Assembly: GCF_014695915.1 (NCBI RefSeq)
Contig: NZ_JACJPF010000036.1
Location: 186,001-250,000 of the forward strand
Direction: 5' to 3'
DNA: 64,000 bases
DNA from: Trichocoleus sp. FACHB-40
Lineage (GTDB): Bacteria > Cyanobacteriota > Cyanobacteriia > Cyanobacteriales > FACHB-T130
This document shows, one piece after another, positions 6,408 through 46,102 of the stretch. Each line of letters opens with the position of its first letter. The first letter of the stretch is position 1. A program made the translations under genes and the position numbers. The notes under the pieces are model-generated. The model searched no databases. It saw only the letters and a list, made by a program, of their open reading frames with translations, and was not told the DNA's origin.

Positions 6408-6800
6408 CTAAATCTCTGAGTCGGGGTTGCGTAGCTTCTCTAACTCAGTCCGCATAGCAGCAATTTGTGCAGTCAACTCCTGTAGCTCTATCTGCACATC
6501 CTGTTGGGCAACCGATGTCGTCGAGGTTGTGACGGTAGAACTGGGTGTCCCATAGGTAGGCGTACTCTCAGTCCGATCAGTTGGTGTTATTAGCGAATCA
6601 ACAAAACTTCGAGCTACCTGCTCCGTTGTCTCTCCTTTTTGTGCCAACTGCTCTAAGAGCAAATTTGAGTCTGTTTTTAACAGTTCAAGATTTTGTTCTC
6701 GCTTTTGCGGGTCTTGTACGCTCTCCACCAGGGAAGCCGTCGCACCCAAGGTGACGCGAAATCCTTTGTGTACTAAGTCAAAGAGATTATCAGAGTTCAT
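6408..6800 (-). CDS. conserved cyanobacterial protein, helical, phasin-like
   Basis: A 130-residue protein with a helical, amphipathic N-terminal part (GFRVTLGATASLVESVQD), a Thr/Ser/Pro-rich low-complexity linker at about 78-97, and a C-terminal heptad-patterned coiled coil (VQIELQELTAQIAAMRTELEKL). This layout resembles the phasin-like proteins of cyanobacteria, but I cannot point to a diagnostic motif, so the name is a suggestion. ATG 6800 gives a plausible start without a strong ribosome site. The hairpin at 6989-7030 separates it from the gene transcribed behind it. Confidence 0.6.
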   Translation of the reverse strand: MNSDNLFDLVHKGFRVTLGATASLVESVQDPQKREQNLELLKTDSNLLLEQLAQKGETTEQVARSFVDSLITPTDRTESTPTYGTPSSTVTTSTTSVAQQDVQIELQELTAQIAAMRTELEKLRNPDSEI

Positions 6801-6988
6801 TAGGTAAATTAAGCCAAATTGAATGATTTGATAAGAATTGAGCGATCGCTATAGTTGACTTCCTTTTGGAATGCCAAAATGCGAACTGTGGGGCGAAGCT
6901 CACCTTGGTGCCAGCTAAGTACGGATGCCGATGACATCTAAACTTGCCGACCATTTTAAGCATACAAGGGGACATTGTGCTGAGATAC

Positions 6989-8735: not shown

Positions 8736-10346
8736 TCATTCCCACTCGATAGTTCCAGGTGGCTTAGAAGTGATATCGTAAACCACGCGATTGACACCCC
8801 GAACTTCATTCACAATACGAGTAGAAACGGTTTCCAAGAAATCATAAGGCACCCTTGCCCAATCCGCCGTCATGCCATCTTCGCTGGAAACGAAGCGTAA
8901 GACAATCGGATAAGCGTAAGTACGCTGATCGCCCATCACGCCTACACTGCGAATAGGTAACAACACAGCAAAAGCTTGCCAGAACTGGTTGTACATTCCC
9001 TGGCGATTAATTTCCTGACGGACAATTAGATCGGCATCGCGTAGAATTTCTAATCGCTCTGCTGTAACTTCGCCTAAAATGCGAATTGCCAGTCCAGGGC
9101 CGGGGAAGGGTTGCCGCTGTACAATTTCTTCTGGTAAACCAATTGAGCGCCCGACTTTTCTCACTTCATCTTTGAAGAGTTTTCGCAGCGGTTCGACTAA
9201 CTTAAACCGTAAGTCTTTAGGCAAACCGCCGACGTTGTGATGGCTCTTAATTTTCACTGCTACCCGTTCGCCAGATTTGGGATCGACGTTGGTATCAGCT
9301 GATTCAATAACATCTGGGTAGAGAGTGCCTTGGGCAAGATAATCAAAGGGGCCAAGACGTTTAGACTCTTCTTCAAAGACGCTGATAAATTCGTGACCGA
9401 TGCGGCGGCGTTTTTCTTCGGGATCTGTGACACCAGCGATCGCATTTAGGAAACGTTCTCTTGCTTGAACGTGTTCCACAGGAATATGAAATTGCTCTTG
9501 GAACAGCTTCACTAACCGTTCTGGCTCCTCTTTCCGCATGAAGCCTTGGTCAATAAACATACAAGTCAACTGATCGCCAATTGCCTTGTACAGCAAAAAG
9601 GCCAGCGTGGAAGAATCGACACCGCCGCTTAAAGCTAACAGCACTCGCTTCTCGCCAACTTTGGCGCGAATTTCTCGAATTGACTGCTCAACAAAAGCTG
9701 CTGTCGTCCAAGTCGGTTCGCAGTCGCAGATGTGATAGACAAAGTTGCGGATTAAGGCAATACCCCCAATCGAGTGAACGACTTCTGGATGGAACTGGAC
9801 ACCGTAGAGCTTTTTCTCGTGGTGAGCGATCGCAGCGCAAGGAGTATTCGCTGTGTGTGCCAGCACCTCAAACCCTTCTGGCATCTTGGTTACAGAGTCC
9901 CCATGACTCATCCACATGGTGGTGCCATCTTCCACATTTGTGAGCAGATCCGTGGGATCGTCAATCAATAAGGATGCCTTGCCATACTCTCCCCGGTCAG
10001 CACTGGTGACTTCCCCACCCAGCTGCTGCACCATCAGCTGCATTCCATAACACACTCCGAGTATGGGAACGCCCAGATTCCATATTTCGGGATCGCCATG
10101 GGGCGCTTTCTTGTCATAGACGGAACTAGGGCCACCAGAGAAGATTATTCCCTTGGGATTGAGTTGCTTTAGCTGTTCGGCTGTGGTTCGATAAGAAAGC
10201 ACTTCCGAGTACACTTGTGTCTCCCGAATCCGACGCGCAATCAGTTCGGAATACTGAGAGCCGAAGTCAAGAATCACAATTATTTGGCGGTTCAGTTGCC
10301 CCAAATTCTCTTCTAATTGAGGCAGTCGTTGTGTCTGTAGAGTCAC
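8736..10346 (-). CDS. guaA: GMP synthase (glutamine-hydrolysing)
   Basis: Converts XMP to GMP using ATP and glutamine-derived ammonia, the last step of guanine nucleotide synthesis. The 536-residue protein has an N-terminal class I amidotransferase with catalytic Cys99 in GVCYGMQLM and the His-Glu pair in [11 protein letters not shown]. The ATP-pyrophosphatase P-loop SGGVDSST lies near residue 240 and the dimerisation domain ends in GTIEWE, the normal C-terminus. The N-terminus is about 15 residues longer than many bacterial GuaA proteins. ATG 10346 is used because the following [13 protein letters not shown] strand begins near residue 21. Monocistronic. Confidence 0.98.
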
Positions 10347-39990: not shown

Positions 39991-40416
39991 GGCAACAAAG
40001 CATGATTGTTTAACGATGCAGCAACTTTCTTTACTCGACTGGGGCTTGCCTGTATTAACGGATACTCTTGAAGTACAGGAGGAATAATTTAGGGCTTAAG
40101 TGATACATCAAGCTACTTCACTTTGCGATCGCTTAATTCCGCATAGCCTTAAAAAATGGTGCATGAAGCGTAACTATCCTGTCGGGAATCGCATCCCGAC
40201 AGGATAGCTAAAAGCGATCGCCCGAATAGCAGTTACAGCAGCAGATTGAGGCGTGGCAAGTGTTACTGGAAAAGTTGGGAGGGATTGACGGTGAAAAAGC
40301 GATCGCTTCACGCTTCTCCTTTCCTGATACCTAGTCGCCCTCTCATTGGAGGTCGTGGTAGTTTCTCGAATCGTTATGAGAAGCGCCTCTGCTAAAAGTC
40401 CTGACTTTGTATCGCC
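39991..40416. other. intergenic region with palindrome and repeat fragment
   Basis: Contains a perfect palindrome (40174-40207, see separate entry) and a degenerate copy of the 101-bp repeat family (about 40215-40300: HIP1, then TTACAGCAGCAGATTGAGGCGTGGCAAG and GAAAAGTTGGGAGGG). No intact gene. Confidence 0.6.
40174..40207. repeat. perfect hairpin palindrome
   Basis: Fourteen-base arms ctatcctgtcggga / tcccgacaggatag with a 6-base loop containing CGCA. It is not next to a gene end (230 bases from the nearest gene end), so it may be a mobile or REP-like palindrome rather than a terminator. Confidence 0.6.
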
Positions 40417-41004
40417 CTAAATCTCTCGACGGAACGCTCTAATCGCTTCTCCAGCGTCAGTCTCCGCCATCAAGATGCAGCGTTTCAATAAATCAAGATC
40501 CAGGTCATTGAGTCCGGGTAGCTGGCTGCGATCGATGGGTTCATAACTACCATCTTGAAGGTGATACAGCTTGAGCGATCCATCTTCCCAAAACCAAACT
40601 TCTAATACACCCAAAGCTTTGTAGCGTTCTAACTTGCTAATGCCTCCACTGGTAAAGACCACTTCAATCGACAAATCGGGAATCGACTTCACACTCCCAA
40701 TGCAGTATGACTCATCCGCCTGAACCGAGACAACGCCTTCTTTTTCCTGAGTCATTGCTCCTGTAGGCTTGAAGAAGATTCCCTGTTCAACCAGAAAGGT
40801 AGTCACTAAGTAAAAAATGACGCGAGCAAAGGCTTCGTGGTCTTGTCCTGGCATAAGAATCTCGATCGTCCCGTCATAGTAAAACAGCCGCATCCCAGGA
40901 GAACCATCAAAGCCCTTCTGGATGAACTTGAACTGTTCCCAAGTTCCATGATGGACAATGCGTTGATCGGTTGTTTTGTCAAGTAGTGGGGGCATCGCGT
41001 TCAC
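40417..41004 (-). CDS. Uma2 family putative endonuclease (DUF820)
   Basis: A 195-residue protein of the Uma2 type, a PD-(D/E)XK-fold family greatly expanded in cyanobacteria and often mobile. The core is visible: SIPDLSIEVVFTSGG with an Asp and Glu on consecutive strands, then a helix, KLERYKALGVLEVWFWEDGSLKLYHL, and a C-terminal helix. ATG 41004 begins MNAMPPLLDK; a start at Met4 is equally possible. Its function is unknown. It is flanked on both sides by fragments of the 101-bp repeat family. Confidence 0.9.
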   Translation of the reverse strand: MNAMPPLLDKTTDQRIVHHGTWEQFKFIQKGFDGSPGMRLFYYDGTIEILMPGQDHEAFARVIFYLVTTFLVEQGIFFKPTGAMTQEKEGVVSVQADESYCIGSVKSIPDLSIEVVFTSGGISKLERYKALGVLEVWFWEDGSLKLYHLQDGSYEPIDRSQLPGLNDLDLDLLKRCILMAETDAGEAIRAFRREI

Positions 41005-41378
41005 TTCTGGCGATGGTCGATTTTATTGTATCTTCTGGTTGGAGAGGTTATCGTGTCAGGCGCGATCACACTCATGAGGCTTTCATGCGATCGCATCCAA
41101 CAATTACAGCAGCAGACTGAGGCCTGGTAAGCAATGCGGTCAAAGTTGGGAGGGAATCAATGAGCGATCGCTTCTCCTGATGACAAGGTATGAGCAGCAT
41201 CAGCTGAGGTTGTTGGTCGTTGTGTCCCAGGTGTGGGAAGAGGGTTTAGATTACGGCTTTGTGGCAGGATAAGCGTTGTTATCAGTGTCAGTTGCTTTTT
41301 GTGGGAATGGCCACCTATCAGAAAGCTATTTGACCAAAGTATTTTCATGCGTAAAATTGAATAAAATGATTAATACTA
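41005..41378. other. intergenic region with repeat fragment
   Basis: Carries another degenerate copy of the 101-bp repeat (about 41085-41170: GCGATCGCATCCAACAATTACAG, then GCGGTCAAAGTTGGGAGGGA). The rest is unremarkable. It precedes xisH and should contain its promoter. Confidence 0.6.
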
Positions 41379-41798
41379 ATGTCTAGACGAGATGATTTAC
41401 ATTTTTCTCTGCGTCGTACCCTAGAAAAGGATGGTTGGACAATTACTGATGCTCCGTTAGTTTTGCTGTTAGAGAGAACATTGCTAAAAGCCGATCTTGG
41501 AGCCGAAAAGTTTTTTAGTGCAGAGAAAGAAAACCGTAAAATTGCAGTTGAAGTAAAAGACTTTGATACTCCTTCGGTGATTAGTGAACTAGAAAAAACG
41601 ATGGGGCAGCTTCAGCTTTATCAGTGGGCTTTAGAAGAACAAGAACCAGATCGTCAGCTTTTTTTGGCTGTGAGCCAGTCTGTCTACTTAAAGCATTTTC
41701 AGAAACCAATTTTTCAGATGGCCATTAGACGGAATAAAATCAATCTACTGATTTATGAGCCTATAGATGAGGTCATTATCCAATGGATCGCTCACTAA
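41379..41798 (+). CDS. xisH: XisH family protein (fdxN element excision controlling factor-like)
   Basis: A 139-residue PD-(D/E)XK-like protein matching Xis[10 protein letters not shown] near 18-26, D39 in ADLGAEKFF and E58-V-K60 in IAVEVKDF, followed by [25 protein letters not shown]. XisH was named for its requirement in excision of the fdxN element in Anabaena, but paralogous pairs are scattered in many cyanobacteria lacking that element. It overlaps xisI by 16 bases. The start gene sequence is ATG 41379. No nif gene or recombinase is near. Confidence 0.92.
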
Positions 41799-42109
41799 CC
41801 TATCCTGAAATTTTGACACAAGTATTACGGAAGGCATCAGCTGCACAACCCCGATTACAGACAATTCAAATTCGTGCCGTGTGCGATACTGAGTCAGGGC
41901 AGTTTCTAATTATTGCAACAGGTTGGGAGAAAAGTGTTTGGCTTAATACAATCTTGTTCCATGCTCGGCTCTTCGATGGCAAGGTTGTTATTGAGGATGA
42001 TAATTTTGAGGAGGGAATGACTGAAGCATTAATTAAAGCAGGAATTGCAGCAGAGGATATCGTGACGGGGCTTTCTCAAGAACAGCGACAGCTGACTCTA
42101 CATCGTTAA
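41783..42109 (+). CDS. xisI: XisI family protein
   Basis: A 108-residue partner of XisH, matching the family by length and by [22 protein letters not shown] and [15 protein letters not shown] near the C-terminus, in place of the usual WIQHDGTE-type block. ATG 41783 lies within the xisH end. The pair is probably one functional unit of nuclease-fold protein plus partner. The overlap suggests coordinated translation; a toxin-antitoxin-like relationship is an idea only. The 101-bp repeat array follows about 90 bases later. Confidence 0.92.
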
Positions 42110-42199
42110 GCACTCACATTCTTACTGTTTGCAACCATCCAAATAATTGGGATGAGAAACAAGGTTGAAACGTGAGAAGCGATGCGATCGCACTCATGA

Positions 42200-42800
42200 G
42201 GCTTTCATGCGATCGCCCGAACAGCAATTACATCAGCAGATTGAGGCGTGGTAAGCGATGCGGTCAAAGTTGGGAGGGAATGAATGAGCGATCGCACTCC
42301 ATAAGCAAAAGGCGATCGCATCCAACAATTACAGCAGCAGATTGAGGCGTGGCAAGCGTTACTGGAAAAGTTGGGAGGGAATGAATGAGCGATCGCACTC
42401 CATAAGCAAAAGGCGATCGCATCCAACAATTACAGCAGCAGATTTAGGTGTGACAAGCGATGCGGTCAAAGTTGGCAGGGAATGAATGAGCGATCGCACT
42501 CCATAAGCAAAAAGCGATCGCATCCAACAATTACAGCAGCAGATTGAGGCGTGACAAGCGATGCGGTCAAAGTTGGCAGGGAATGAATGAGCGATCGCAC
42601 TCCATAAGCAAAAAGCGATCGCATCCAACAATTACAGCAGCAGATTGAGGTGTGACAAGCGATGCGGTCAAAGTTGGCAGGGAATGAATGAGCGATCGCA
42701 CTCATGAGGCAAAAGGCGATCGCATCCAACAATTACAGCAGCAGATTGAGGTGTGACAAGCGATGCGGTCAAAGTTGGGAGGGAGTGAATGAGCAATTGT
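42200..42800. repeat. 101-bp tandem repeat array, about six units
   Basis: The landmark gcgatcgcac recurs at 42288, 42389, 42490, 42591 and 42692, exactly 101 bases apart, with a degraded equivalent (gagcaattgt) at 42793 and a partial unit at the left. Units are contiguous with no unique spacers. Each unit has two HIP1 sites flanking about 25 bases (CTCCATAAGCAAAA), then ATCCAACAATTACAGCAGCAG and AAGTTGG(C/G)AGGGAATGAATGA. One unit (about 42317-42387) stays open as DRIQQLQQQIEAWQALLEKL followed by GGNE and a stop, a plausible protein C-terminus; in other units it is broken. Confidence 0.92.
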
Positions 42801-42990
42801 CTCACGCCGAGTTACCCTGTCAGAGAATAAAATCGCAGTTTAAGTCAAGGGCAAGGTATGAGCAGCCTGTCGTTTCTCGGAATGCAAAGTGCTTCGTTCA
42901 TTACGGCACCATCCGTGGACAAAAATCACGTCTCCTAGCGAAAGGGTTTATCACAACTAGCGATTTCGATTAAGTCATTGAAGTTGCTTA

Positions 42991-44883
42991 CTATCTTTGT
43001 TTTCTCATTAGCTTCAGGTATTCTGTACGAACGTATGAATCATCTTCATCTGGATATTTTTGGAACCAAATATCAGCCTGATTAATTGCTGTTTGCTGCT
43101 GTTGTGATGTTCCTTTTTGGTTAATTAATTTGAGATATTCCCAAAAAACGTAGCGATCACAGTTACTTCCATGCTCTTCCAGCCATAAAGTCATCTTAGA
43201 AATTGCCTCTTGAGAGTGTTCTGGCTTCCCCTTTTCCCTTGCTAATGCAAGGTACTGCGTGAGAACATATGATGATTGATCTGGATGTTCTGATAGCCAA
43301 TTAGAAGACTGAAGAATTGCCTCATGACATTGCTCTTTTAGTATTCCTGGTTTTCTAATCAGCTTTAGATACTCCGTAAAAACGTAGGGATCACAGTTTT
43401 CTAGATTCTCTTGTAGCCAAAGGGACATTTTTACAATTGCTTTCTGCTGTTGTTCCGGCAAGCCTTTTTCTCTTACCAAAATAAGGTAGTGCCGACGAAT
43501 ATATGATTCATTTGGATGCCTTTCCAACCAAATAGCAGTCTTATAAATTGCATGAAGACAGGCATCAAGATTTCCTTCTGTTTTAGTATCTTGAAGATTC
43601 TCTAGAATTGTTTTTGAGTCCATCTTTAATATCTGTGCTATATCATTGGTAGGTGCGGACTTTAATATATCTTCAAGCCCTGTAAAAACTTGGCAAGCTG
43701 CATTTTCCCATGTCCAAATTTTAGACAGCTTTTCCTTAAGTTTCTTAGCGTTTCTCTTCGCTTTGTCTTTGTCATCGGCTATCTTATAGAGACAATCTAC
43801 AACTTCTTGAATATCTGTATCTTGAAAGGATTTCTCACCAAATGAACCTGAGATATCAACATGATACAAACAGCCAGTTCCTTCTCCCTCAAGAGTTTGG
43901 TCTATAGCCTTATACAAACCAGTATTCTTTGAAATGATAAGCGGAACTTCAGCACTTATTGCCTCTAGACCAACAAGACCAAAACCCTCGTGAAGAGAAA
44001 GCATCATACAAACAGTGTTTCCTCTAAGCTCATTGAATAGTTCTTGTCGATTTTCGTTATATATCCAACCGTAAATCGATACGGCTTTTCTCGCATAATC
44101 TTCGCCTAACGATTTGAGTGACTGATTCCCCCTGTCTATCTCCTCATTGGACAATCCAATCACTACGAGTCCAGGATCTCGTCCAAGTGGGTTTGCCCTA
44201 TTTTTTACAGCTTCCCCAAAACTAGCTACAGCTAAATCAGTCTGTTTAAGTAAGCCGTTTTCTTGATCCAGCCGTCCGAAAGTTATCGCTAAAAAGCGGG
44301 ATGGCATCTCTACTGGTTTTATCTCTGCTAAACCTGGTTGAACTTTTATGACACGGACTTCTTTTTCTCCTCCACGAATTTTGTCTATTGCCGACTCTTC
44401 CAATTTCGGACCAATAGCGAATACAGTATCAGCTTCCTTCAGGATATTCTCTTGACGCGAAATCGAATCCTTATCGTTTTTGCCTTGGAAGGGCTTGTAT
44501 GCCCTGTAATCCATGTGATGAAATACGGCGACTGGAACGCCAACATCCCTTGATAATTTAATGGCTCTCGGTCCAGTATGTACGTCATGTCCCAGCACGT
44601 ATACAGGCTTTATTTCGTTGCCTTTAAGTTGGCTACTAACATTCTTCATGTCGAGGGCAGGCTCATCGTGGTGGGAAATAACAAGAAGTTCTATGCCAAG
44701 TGCCTTAGCCTCTTCGACCTCAGTGTATTTTCCTTCATTGACGATGCAAACAACCTTTAATTTGGGATGACCAGGTTCAGCTAAAAGTTTAGCCAAAGCT
44801 TTACAAAGGTCATAGTTAAAAGAATTGATACCTCCGTGACGTGTCCCCCAAGCTGTCGCGAAAAATACGAGGCATTCCTTCAT
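42991..44883 (-). CDS. family 4 glycosyltransferase fused to C-terminal helical repeats
   Basis: A two-part protein of about 630 residues. Start is ATG 44883 (AGGAAA 10-15 bases upstream), giving MKECLVFFATAWGTRHGGIN; earlier in-frame codons overlap the upstream gene. Residues about 1-440 are a GT-B glycosyltransferase: the Gly-rich GTRHGGINSF, LGHDVHTGPRA near 105, AITFGRLDQENG near 200, and the nucleotide-sugar motif HEGFGLVGLEA near 296-306 (E-x7-E). Residues about 460-630 hold four or five 45-residue repeats (YVFTEYLKLIRKPG type; SYVLTQYLALAREKG). Sugar donor and acceptor are unknown. It is transcribed right behind the 44898-45620 gene (14-base gap). Confidence 0.85.
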   Translation of the reverse strand: MKECLVFFATAWGTRHGGINSFNYDLCKALAKLLAEPGHPKLKVVCIVNEGKYTEVEEAKALGIELLVISHHDEPALDMKNVSSQLKGNEIKPVYVLGHDVHTGPRAIKLSRDVGVPVAVFHHMDYRAYKPFQGKNDKDSISRQENILKEADTVFAIGPKLEESAIDKIRGGEKEVRVIKVQPGLAEIKPVEMPSRFLAITFGRLDQENGLLKQTDLAVASFGEAVKNRANPLGRDPGLVVIGLSNEEIDRGNQSLKSLGEDYARKAVSIYGWIYNENRQELFNELRGNTVCMMLSLHEGFGLVGLEAISAEVPLIISKNTGLYKAIDQTLEGEGTGCLYHVDISGSFGEKSFQDTDIQEVVDCLYKIADDKDKAKRNAKKLKEKLSKIWTWENAACQVFTGLEDILKSAPTNDIAQILKMDSKTILENLQDTKTEGNLDACLHAIYKTAIWLERHPNESYIRRHYLILVREKGLPEQQQKAIVKMSLWLQENLENCDPYVFTEYLKLIRKPGILKEQCHEAILQSSNWLSEHPDQSSYVLTQYLALAREKGKPEHSQEAISKMTLWLEEHGSNCDRYVFWEYLKLINQKGTSQQQQTAINQADIWFQKYPDEDDSYVRTEYLKLMRKQR

Positions 44884-44897
44884 AGCTATGGAATTTC

Positions 44898-45620
44898 CTA
44901 CGATAATGGAATAAACGCTGTGTCTGTCAAATCTTTCTCTAGTCTTGCAGATTTGTATCCGTATGTTGCAGGCGACTGTAATGTAATGATTAGGCAAAAC
45001 TGTTTTTTATTTCCAAATTTTTTTCTCAAAAAATCATCATAATTTTGAATTAAATAGTGAATAGCTCCCTGATTAGTTCTCCCTGTCTGTCCACAAATTA
45101 AAATCACAGGATGAGAAGTATAACTAGGATAGAGTCTTGCTAAAACAGCATACTCGCTCTTGTTTTTCTCATACCTAAATTTTTCGTTTTTGGTAACAAT
45201 TGCAATATTATCAGGATCGCCTGGCTCGTAGGGTTTCAGATGAATCCCCTTAAGAAAATTTTCTAAATGCACTCTGGTTCTCTGATTGGAGTCTGGACCA
45301 CCTATACAAAATTCAGTCGTTCCTCCAGCAGGTTCCAGTATTTCATCGAAGGGAGCAATTATTAATTTGGAGCCAATTTCATCGACAAGCCTAACAACTT
45401 CAATCAATGTCTGCACGTCTGAATGAGACATTGTATTCGGGCTTTTAGGATTATGATTCATTACTGCAAGGCATGTTTCCTTGGGTAAAAGACCAAAAAA
45501 GGCAGCCCTTCGATTTAGGATTCTGGATTTGCGTACCTTTTCCCATAGCCAAACAGCAAGGGCTGTTACAATGCTTGTTACTATGCCAACTACAAAGTTT
45601 TCAATAACTGATGGAGACAT
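44898..45620 (-). CDS. membrane-anchored protein of unknown function paired with GT4 gene
   Basis: About 240 residues from ATG 45620 (MSPSVIENFVVGIVTSIV); an upstream ATG at 45710 would add 30 residues. One transmembrane helix (about residues 8-26) is followed by a basic KVRKSRILNRRAAFFG and a cytoplasmic domain. Its most distinctive segments are NHNPKSPNTMSHSDVQTLIE, CIGGPDSNQRTRVHLENFL and ILICGQTGRTNQGAIHYLIQ, the latter two with Rossmann-like Gly turns that might bind a nucleotide. I recall similar pairs in actinobacteria but cannot name the family. Only 14 bases separate it from the glycosyltransferase gene, so they form an operon. Confidence 0.7.
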   Translation of the reverse strand: MSPSVIENFVVGIVTSIVTALAVWLWEKVRKSRILNRRAAFFGLLPKETCLAVMNHNPKSPNTMSHSDVQTLIEVVRLVDEIGSKLIIAPFDEILEPAGGTTEFCIGGPDSNQRTRVHLENFLKGIHLKPYEPGDPDNIAIVTKNEKFRYEKNKSEYAVLARLYPSYTSHPVILICGQTGRTNQGAIHYLIQNYDDFLRKKFGNKKQFCLIITLQSPATYGYKSARLEKDLTDTAFIPLS

Positions 45621-45710
45621 TGAGCCTGAAGCCAATAGGGTTGTAGTGGAATTCAGTACAGTTGTCTGACGATTTCGCTCACTCGTACAGATTAATGTCA
45701 ACAACATCAT

Positions 45711-46030
45711 AGTCTAATAGATGAATCGTCAGACCAACTCATCTACTGATCAAAGGTTCTGTGGTTCTCTCGCAAGCGTTGATGGATGCGATCGCAAAGT
45801 GGCGTAAAGTGCGATCGCACTCTCAGCAAGCTTCCACATATTCACATAGAGTCGTGGGTTCTCCGAATGAGTAAACGCTCATCTAGGCAACCAATCCAAA
45901 TGAAAAGCGGTAAGCGAAGCCATGCCCTAGGCTTATCGCTTCTTTTATATGCTGTTCTATCTCTTTAAAAGTCACTGTTGTACAGCGACAACAATCTGCA
46001 CTGACGACAAATAATTAGTCACTGTAAAAA
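45711..46030. other. intergenic region next to tRNA-Gly
   Basis: Contains HIP1 sites near 45788 and 45811 and a short stretch (AAGCGGTAAGCGAAGCC...GGCTTATCGCTTC, about 45904-45942) that can fold. A 60-codon open stretch on the plus strand has no family resemblance and is not called. No integrase or attachment-site duplication is seen. Confidence 0.45.
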
Positions 46031-46102
46031 AGCGGGTGATCGGACTCGAACCGACGACATTCAGCATGGGAAGCTGACGTTCTACCACTGAACTACACCC
46101 GC
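46031..46102 (-). tRNA. tRNA-Gly (anticodon CCC)
   Basis: 72 nt. On the minus strand the acceptor stem GCGGGTG pairs with CACCCGC, the D arm is AGTTCAGTGGTAGAACG type, the anticodon stem CAGC/GCTG closes the loop TTCCCAT with anticodon CCC, and the T arm carries GGTTCGAGTCC. CCA is not encoded. It reads GGG codons. Confidence 0.95.

Follow-up and report, generated by a model that had tools for sequence, protein, structure and literature searches.

The window, a 64,000-nucleotide stretch of Trichocoleus sp. FACHB-40, carries on its minus strand two closely spaced genes. The first encodes a membrane protein, here termed the partner, and the second a GT4 glycosyltransferase fused to helical repeats. 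The features of the locus are as follows.

40335 to 45982: accessory interval holding Uma2, xisHI, a 101-bp array and the gene pair; its right edge is the synteny break at the tRNA-Gly gene
42225 to 42794: 101-bp tandem array of 5.6 copies, containing GCGATCGC
42977 to 45972: 3.0-kb unit shared with Coleofasciculus sp. LEGE 07092
42991 to 44883, minus strand: GT4 protein (3' gene of the pair), 630 aa, GT4-conflict glycosyltransferase with helical-repeat module
42991 to 43623, minus strand: C-terminal module of the GT4 protein (residues 421-630), five 39-residue two-helix repeats
44884 to 44897, minus strand: 14-bp intergenic gap, of the same length at each of the three pair loci
44898 to 45620, minus strand: partner (5' gene of the pair), 240 aa, single transmembrane (TM) helix and predicted cytoplasmic alpha/beta domain
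45722 to 45795: 74-bp element upstream of the pair
45826 to 46011, minus strand: remains of a decayed hicB gene (tblastn E 4e-10), interrupted by an in-frame stop and lying upstream of the pair
46031 to 46102, minus strand: tRNA-Gly(CCC)

Both ORFs lie where a sequence-only reading of this DNA had placed them, on the same strand and 14 bp apart. The partner starts at a conserved ATG (MSPSV) in a frame that is open from 45710. The same gap is found at 6793-6806 of the Coleofasciculus sp. LEGE 07092 locus (L020) and at 8780-8793 of the locus in genome G002 (L019).

The accessory interval described in that reading, with Uma2, XisH, XisI and a repeat array and bounded by tRNA-Gly(CCC), was confirmed. 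On the left, a genome of the same species (G479) is collinear with the window up to 40335 and then continues into IS-like sequence and the end of its contig; the right side of an empty site was not found in that genome. On the right, two relatives (G003 and G004) retain the tRNA-Gly side, with synteny to the window breaking at 45982, beside the 3' end of the tRNA gene, and other genes beyond that point. The tRNA gene is at most a putative classical attachment site: the relatives do differ there, yet the junction carries the decayed hicB, and the break on this side may therefore be the end of a deletion or rearrangement. An intact hicAB, with Pfam matches for both HicA and HicB, precedes the pair in Coleofasciculus, where parE is also present.

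The 74-bp element is conserved at the three loci of the pair. G002 carries one copy more, which precedes a GHKL-ATPase gene. A role as a defence promoter was considered and rejected, as the genes that follow the partial copies of G004 and G029 are not clearly defence genes. Folding of the region containing the element was no better than that of shuffled sequences. In G002 and Coleofasciculus, related copies of the 101-bp array are found close to the pair. The Uma2 protein (window 40417-41004) matches the PADLOC candidate PDC-S17 (E 1e-62), and G004 has a similar Uma2 gene about 2.5 kb from its partial copy of the 74-bp element. The island adjoining the pair in G002 (L019 10579-18253) includes genes for a PtuB-like HNH protein, a Methyltransf_35 protein, a GHKL ATPase and type I RM. 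Directly downstream of the GT4 gene in G002 (L019 6380-6847) is a gene for a small helical protein of no convincing family, a possible third component of the system in that genome.

The partner and this GT4 sub-family co-occur in exactly the same 3 of the 391 genomes of the order and are absent from the other 388. Presence among relatives is patchy, and neither gene was found in the same-species genome G479. Linkage of the two genes, as the sequence-only reading had proposed, holds in every genome with this GT4 (3/3), each intact pair having the 14-bp gap, in a co-occurrence sample that is small and non-independent, since the three loci are homologous and mutually related. That the genes might usually be separate elsewhere proved partly true of the partner, which occurs alone in Leptolyngbya and Streptomyces, and untrue of the GT4 gene. 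The 3.0-kb unit shared with Coleofasciculus shows 89% DNA identity and ends abruptly, and the flanking genes differ on both sides. The pair looks like a mobile, patchily inherited two-gene unit.

The partner has one TM helix, as had been supposed, at about residues 5-26, with no K or R before it and six after; a homologue from Streptomyces shows the same TM and K/R pattern. By the positive-inside rule, the main domain is placed in the cytoplasm. Homologues match at 91%, 94% and 67% in cyanobacteria and at 26-28% in Streptomyces. Conserved between the two phyla are FFG, AP-x-D, TEFC-x-G-x-P, LAR, PV-x-L and GQ. The two Gly/Asn turns singled out in the sequence-only reading are indeed present in the partner, but only parts of them (TEFC-x-G-x-P and GQ) are conserved in the Streptomyces homologue. 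No family match was obtained in Pfam, NCBIfam, PADLOC or PHROGs; the pair points to a partner family that lacks annotation. An AlphaFold2 model built from three sequences reached a pLDDT of only 49 and Foldseek returned nothing at E <= 0.001, so that our claim about the fold stops at a predicted mixed alpha/beta domain. A weak hhalign match to a BcsB-like alpha/beta domain spans 42 columns (probability 2.7%, P 0.017). The occurrence of the partner without a GT4 gene in Leptolyngbya cf. ectocarpi and Streptomyces sp. BHT-5-2 indicates that pairing is not obligatory, and the partner may act independently.

The GT4 protein matches the Pfam family GT4-conflict (PF20706) with an E value of 7.5e-76, residues 7-397 aligning to profile positions 2-383. 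The match scores 256 bits, and 257.7 bits in the comparison across 292 cyanobacterial genomes, where every other GT4 stays at 96.8 bits or less. At its own gathering cut-off the profile also matches GT4s in all 14 control genomes. It was therefore rejected as a genome-wide marker, and it is the score gap, not the label alone, that carries the assignment. Annotation by the cut-off alone over-calls the GT4-conflict family. Both core motifs named in the sequence-only reading, GTRHGGIN and E-x7-E (E299, E307), are present. Residues R204, K213, E299 and E307 and an HHM motif (H123) align with their counterparts in the Rhizobium and Robbsia members of the family; in the Rhizobium protein the first H of HHM is a K. 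Since these residues are common to the members from Rhizobium and Robbsia, the enzyme and its active site look intact by alignment. A structure model of the protein resembles MshA, a retaining enzyme, in its N-terminal GT-B half (3c4q; Z 12.4, rmsd 3.8, 160 residues); confidence in the model is low at residues 177-419. Searches with both proteins of the pair gave no PADLOC match at E <= 1, no significant match to PDB sequences and no relative among viral contigs and phage records.

Helical repeats are fused to the enzyme, as had been noted, in five copies, but with a period of 39 residues and not 45, the offset scores in self-comparison peaking at 39, 78 and 117. In the structure model each repeat forms two helices, with pLDDT of about 75-94 across most of residues 421-630. 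The module is without a Pfam model. Over 209 aa it shares 50% identity with the C-terminal part of an EAD1 protein from another cyanobacterium (G636, locus L102), the gene neighbours of which encode two EAD1-NACHT proteins, an EAD1-GUN4 and an EAD1-TIR. That cluster of five EAD1 proteins (L102 259-11756) is close to a ParA-like gene. The module is also 36-44% identical to the repeats behind CHAT and nSTAND5 in a plasmid protein of Anabaena sp. 90 (L026); it moves between GT4, EAD1 and CHAT-nSTAND proteins. The C-terminal position in STAND proteins is generally that of the sensor. We therefore read the repeats as a recognition module, and they are a better candidate for the sensor than the membrane partner.

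The two genes have evolved at different rates. Between the window and Coleofasciculus the partner shows dN 0.030 and dS 0.313 (omega 0.09), whereas omega for the GT4 gene is 0.52 and for its repeats 0.77 (bootstrap interval 0.42-1.57); with few sequences, these high values may partly reflect relaxed constraint rather than diversifying selection. Between the window and G002, dS is 0.28 for the partner and 0.84 for the GT4 gene, and is already 0.86 over the first 52 GT4 codons. This difference implies either that the GT4 gene was replaced or that the partner was exchanged between lineages. The G002 enzyme is far more diverged and has another C-terminus, yet it is still a GT4-conflict protein, and its gene lies 14 bp behind that of a partner that has hardly changed. 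Of the two components, the partner is thus constant and evolves slowly, and the enzyme gene is the changing one.

A role as immune effectors was predicted in 2021 for the GT4-conflict glycosyltransferases of bacteria and of some animals (PMC8195603). The contexts given in the GT4 section of that paper include STAND NTPases, vWA (vWA-MoxR), CATRA, GreA/B-C, AP-GTPase and toxins. As far as that section describes them, these effectors (PF20706) resemble the window protein in their full-length GT4 domain, catalytic residues, fusion to a conflict-type module, mobility and patchiness, but the window pair has no STAND NTPase, vWA, GreA/B-C or AP-GTPase part. Neither the GT4 protein, by Pfam, nor the adjoining genes contain a STAND NTPase, vWA-MoxR, AP-GTPase, CATRA or GreA/B-C, and the one link of the pair to the described conflict cores is an indirect one, by way of the repeats that it shares with other proteins. 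A pair with a TM alpha/beta partner is not mentioned in the GT4 section of the paper (PMC8195603), and may stand in its source-data tables. Our literature search found no biochemical, phage or other experimental test of the GT4-conflict family. Most of its described contexts are large NTPase systems, whereas the pair comprises two genes of about 2.7 kb in all and is free of NTPases; it would lend itself readily to tests of which molecules these enzymes modify.

By analogy, the layout of the pair resembles that of the EACC1 two-gene system, in which, as outlined in PMC7159879, a 5' gene encodes a constant protein with a single TM and the 3' gene a protein with an N-terminal caspase or cNMP cyclase. 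Common to both, on that outline, are the constant single-TM protein encoded by the 5' gene and a 3' constant enzyme with an exchangeable C-terminal module. The 3' enzyme of the pair, however, is a GT4, not a caspase or cNMP cyclase, and its TM protein, with a domain of about 200 residues, is not recognisably EACC1. The partner has no Pfam match at E <= 1 in a Pfam set for which inclusion of an EACC1 model was not established. The EAD1-linked effector sets with NACHT, TIR and GUN4, of the kind outlined in PMC7159879, share the 39-residue module through the G636 protein; the window pair differs in having no EAD, its module being fused directly to the GT4. The Anabaena CHAT-nSTAND5 protein has the same repeat type in the same C-terminal, sensor-like position, but there a CHAT protease, combined with an NTPase switch, is the effector, whereas the window pair has a GT4 and no NTPase.

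We favour, with a probability of about 55%, a small mobile two-gene conflict system, probably directed against invaders, in which a membrane-tethered glycosyltransferase would be triggered through its repeats; its trigger, target and anti-phage function are what we infer. Gene 1 would supply the constant membrane-tethered component, with an N-terminal TM helix and a cytoplasmic alpha/beta domain. Gene 2 would supply a soluble effector, a retaining GT4 with a C-terminal two-helix solenoid for recognition and control. At rest, the GT4 would probably be kept at the membrane by a putative physical interaction with the partner. Recognition of an invader cue by the solenoid or the partner would activate the GT4, which would move a sugar from a nucleotide-sugar donor onto an invader or host target, and glycosylation of this presumed substrate might then stop infection. 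The sequence-only reading had proposed a sensor and a glycosyl-modifying effector, possibly for defence; its conflict character is supported by membership of the GT4-conflict family, by a repeat module that also occurs in EAD1 and CHAT-nSTAND proteins and by patchiness, while the individual roles remain putative. The neighbouring genes also speak for such a system (type I RM and PtuB-like HNH in G002, hicAB and parE in Coleofasciculus, Uma2 and xisHI in the window), as does the fast change of the GT4 gene beside a constrained partner. Speaking against it are the lack of a PADLOC match for either protein and the partners that stand without a GT4. More tentatively, the pair could represent an NTPase-free two-gene immune type, in which an uncharacterised family of membrane-tethered alpha/beta proteins from cyanobacteria and Streptomyces gates an exchangeable, repeat-guided glycosyltransferase effector.

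A toxin-antitoxin-like pair, with a growth-blocking glycosyltransferase bound and restrained by the membrane protein, would account for the tight two-gene unit, the conserved 14-bp gap and the constant upstream gene. It would also suit the toxin-antitoxin neighbours (hicAB and parE in Coleofasciculus, the hicB remnant in the window) and the GT4-conflict domains of predicted secreted toxins reported in the GT4 section of PMC8195603. We nevertheless consider it unlikely: in Leptolyngbya and Streptomyces the partner has no GT4 beside it, and the partner evolves slowly (omega 0.09) and stays nearly unchanged where the GT4 gene is exchanged, whereas antitoxins usually co-vary with their toxins.

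Glycans, BshA/MshA-type thiols and lipids are the usual products of GT4 enzymes. A glycosyltransferase of the ordinary kind, serving the cell surface, glycolipids or thiols with the aid of a membrane helper and with no conflict role, would fit these usual functions, and also the GT-B fold match to MshA and a membrane partner suited to lipid glycosylation. It is unlikely, slightly more so than a toxin-antitoxin pair. Against it stand a sub-family score far from those of other GT4s, a C-terminal module common to EAD1 and CHAT-nSTAND proteins, and absence from the same-species genome and from 388 of the 391 order members. Moreover, no exopolysaccharide or polysaccharide genes were found in the gene neighbourhood of the pair, which argues against the normal exopolysaccharide cluster that the sequence-only reading had named as the contrary case. 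Least probable is the chance joining of two independent genes in a gene-acquisition hot spot, co-inherited since, which would agree with the lone partners of Leptolyngbya and Streptomyces, with the GT4-conflict genes of Rhizobium, Robbsia and Hymenobacter that lack this partner and with the homology of the three loci, but not with the diverged GT4-conflict gene of G002, which has kept its 14-bp distance from a partner that has hardly changed, a sign of selection for pairing.

GT4-conflict genes were also seen on two plasmids. In Rhizobium sp. C104 (L025 5001-8942) a single protein of 1313 residues combines the domain with B12-binding and radical SAM domains. On a Hymenobacter plasmid (L024 4995-8173) the gene is apparently split over two frames and is followed by a gene for an unrelated membrane protein.
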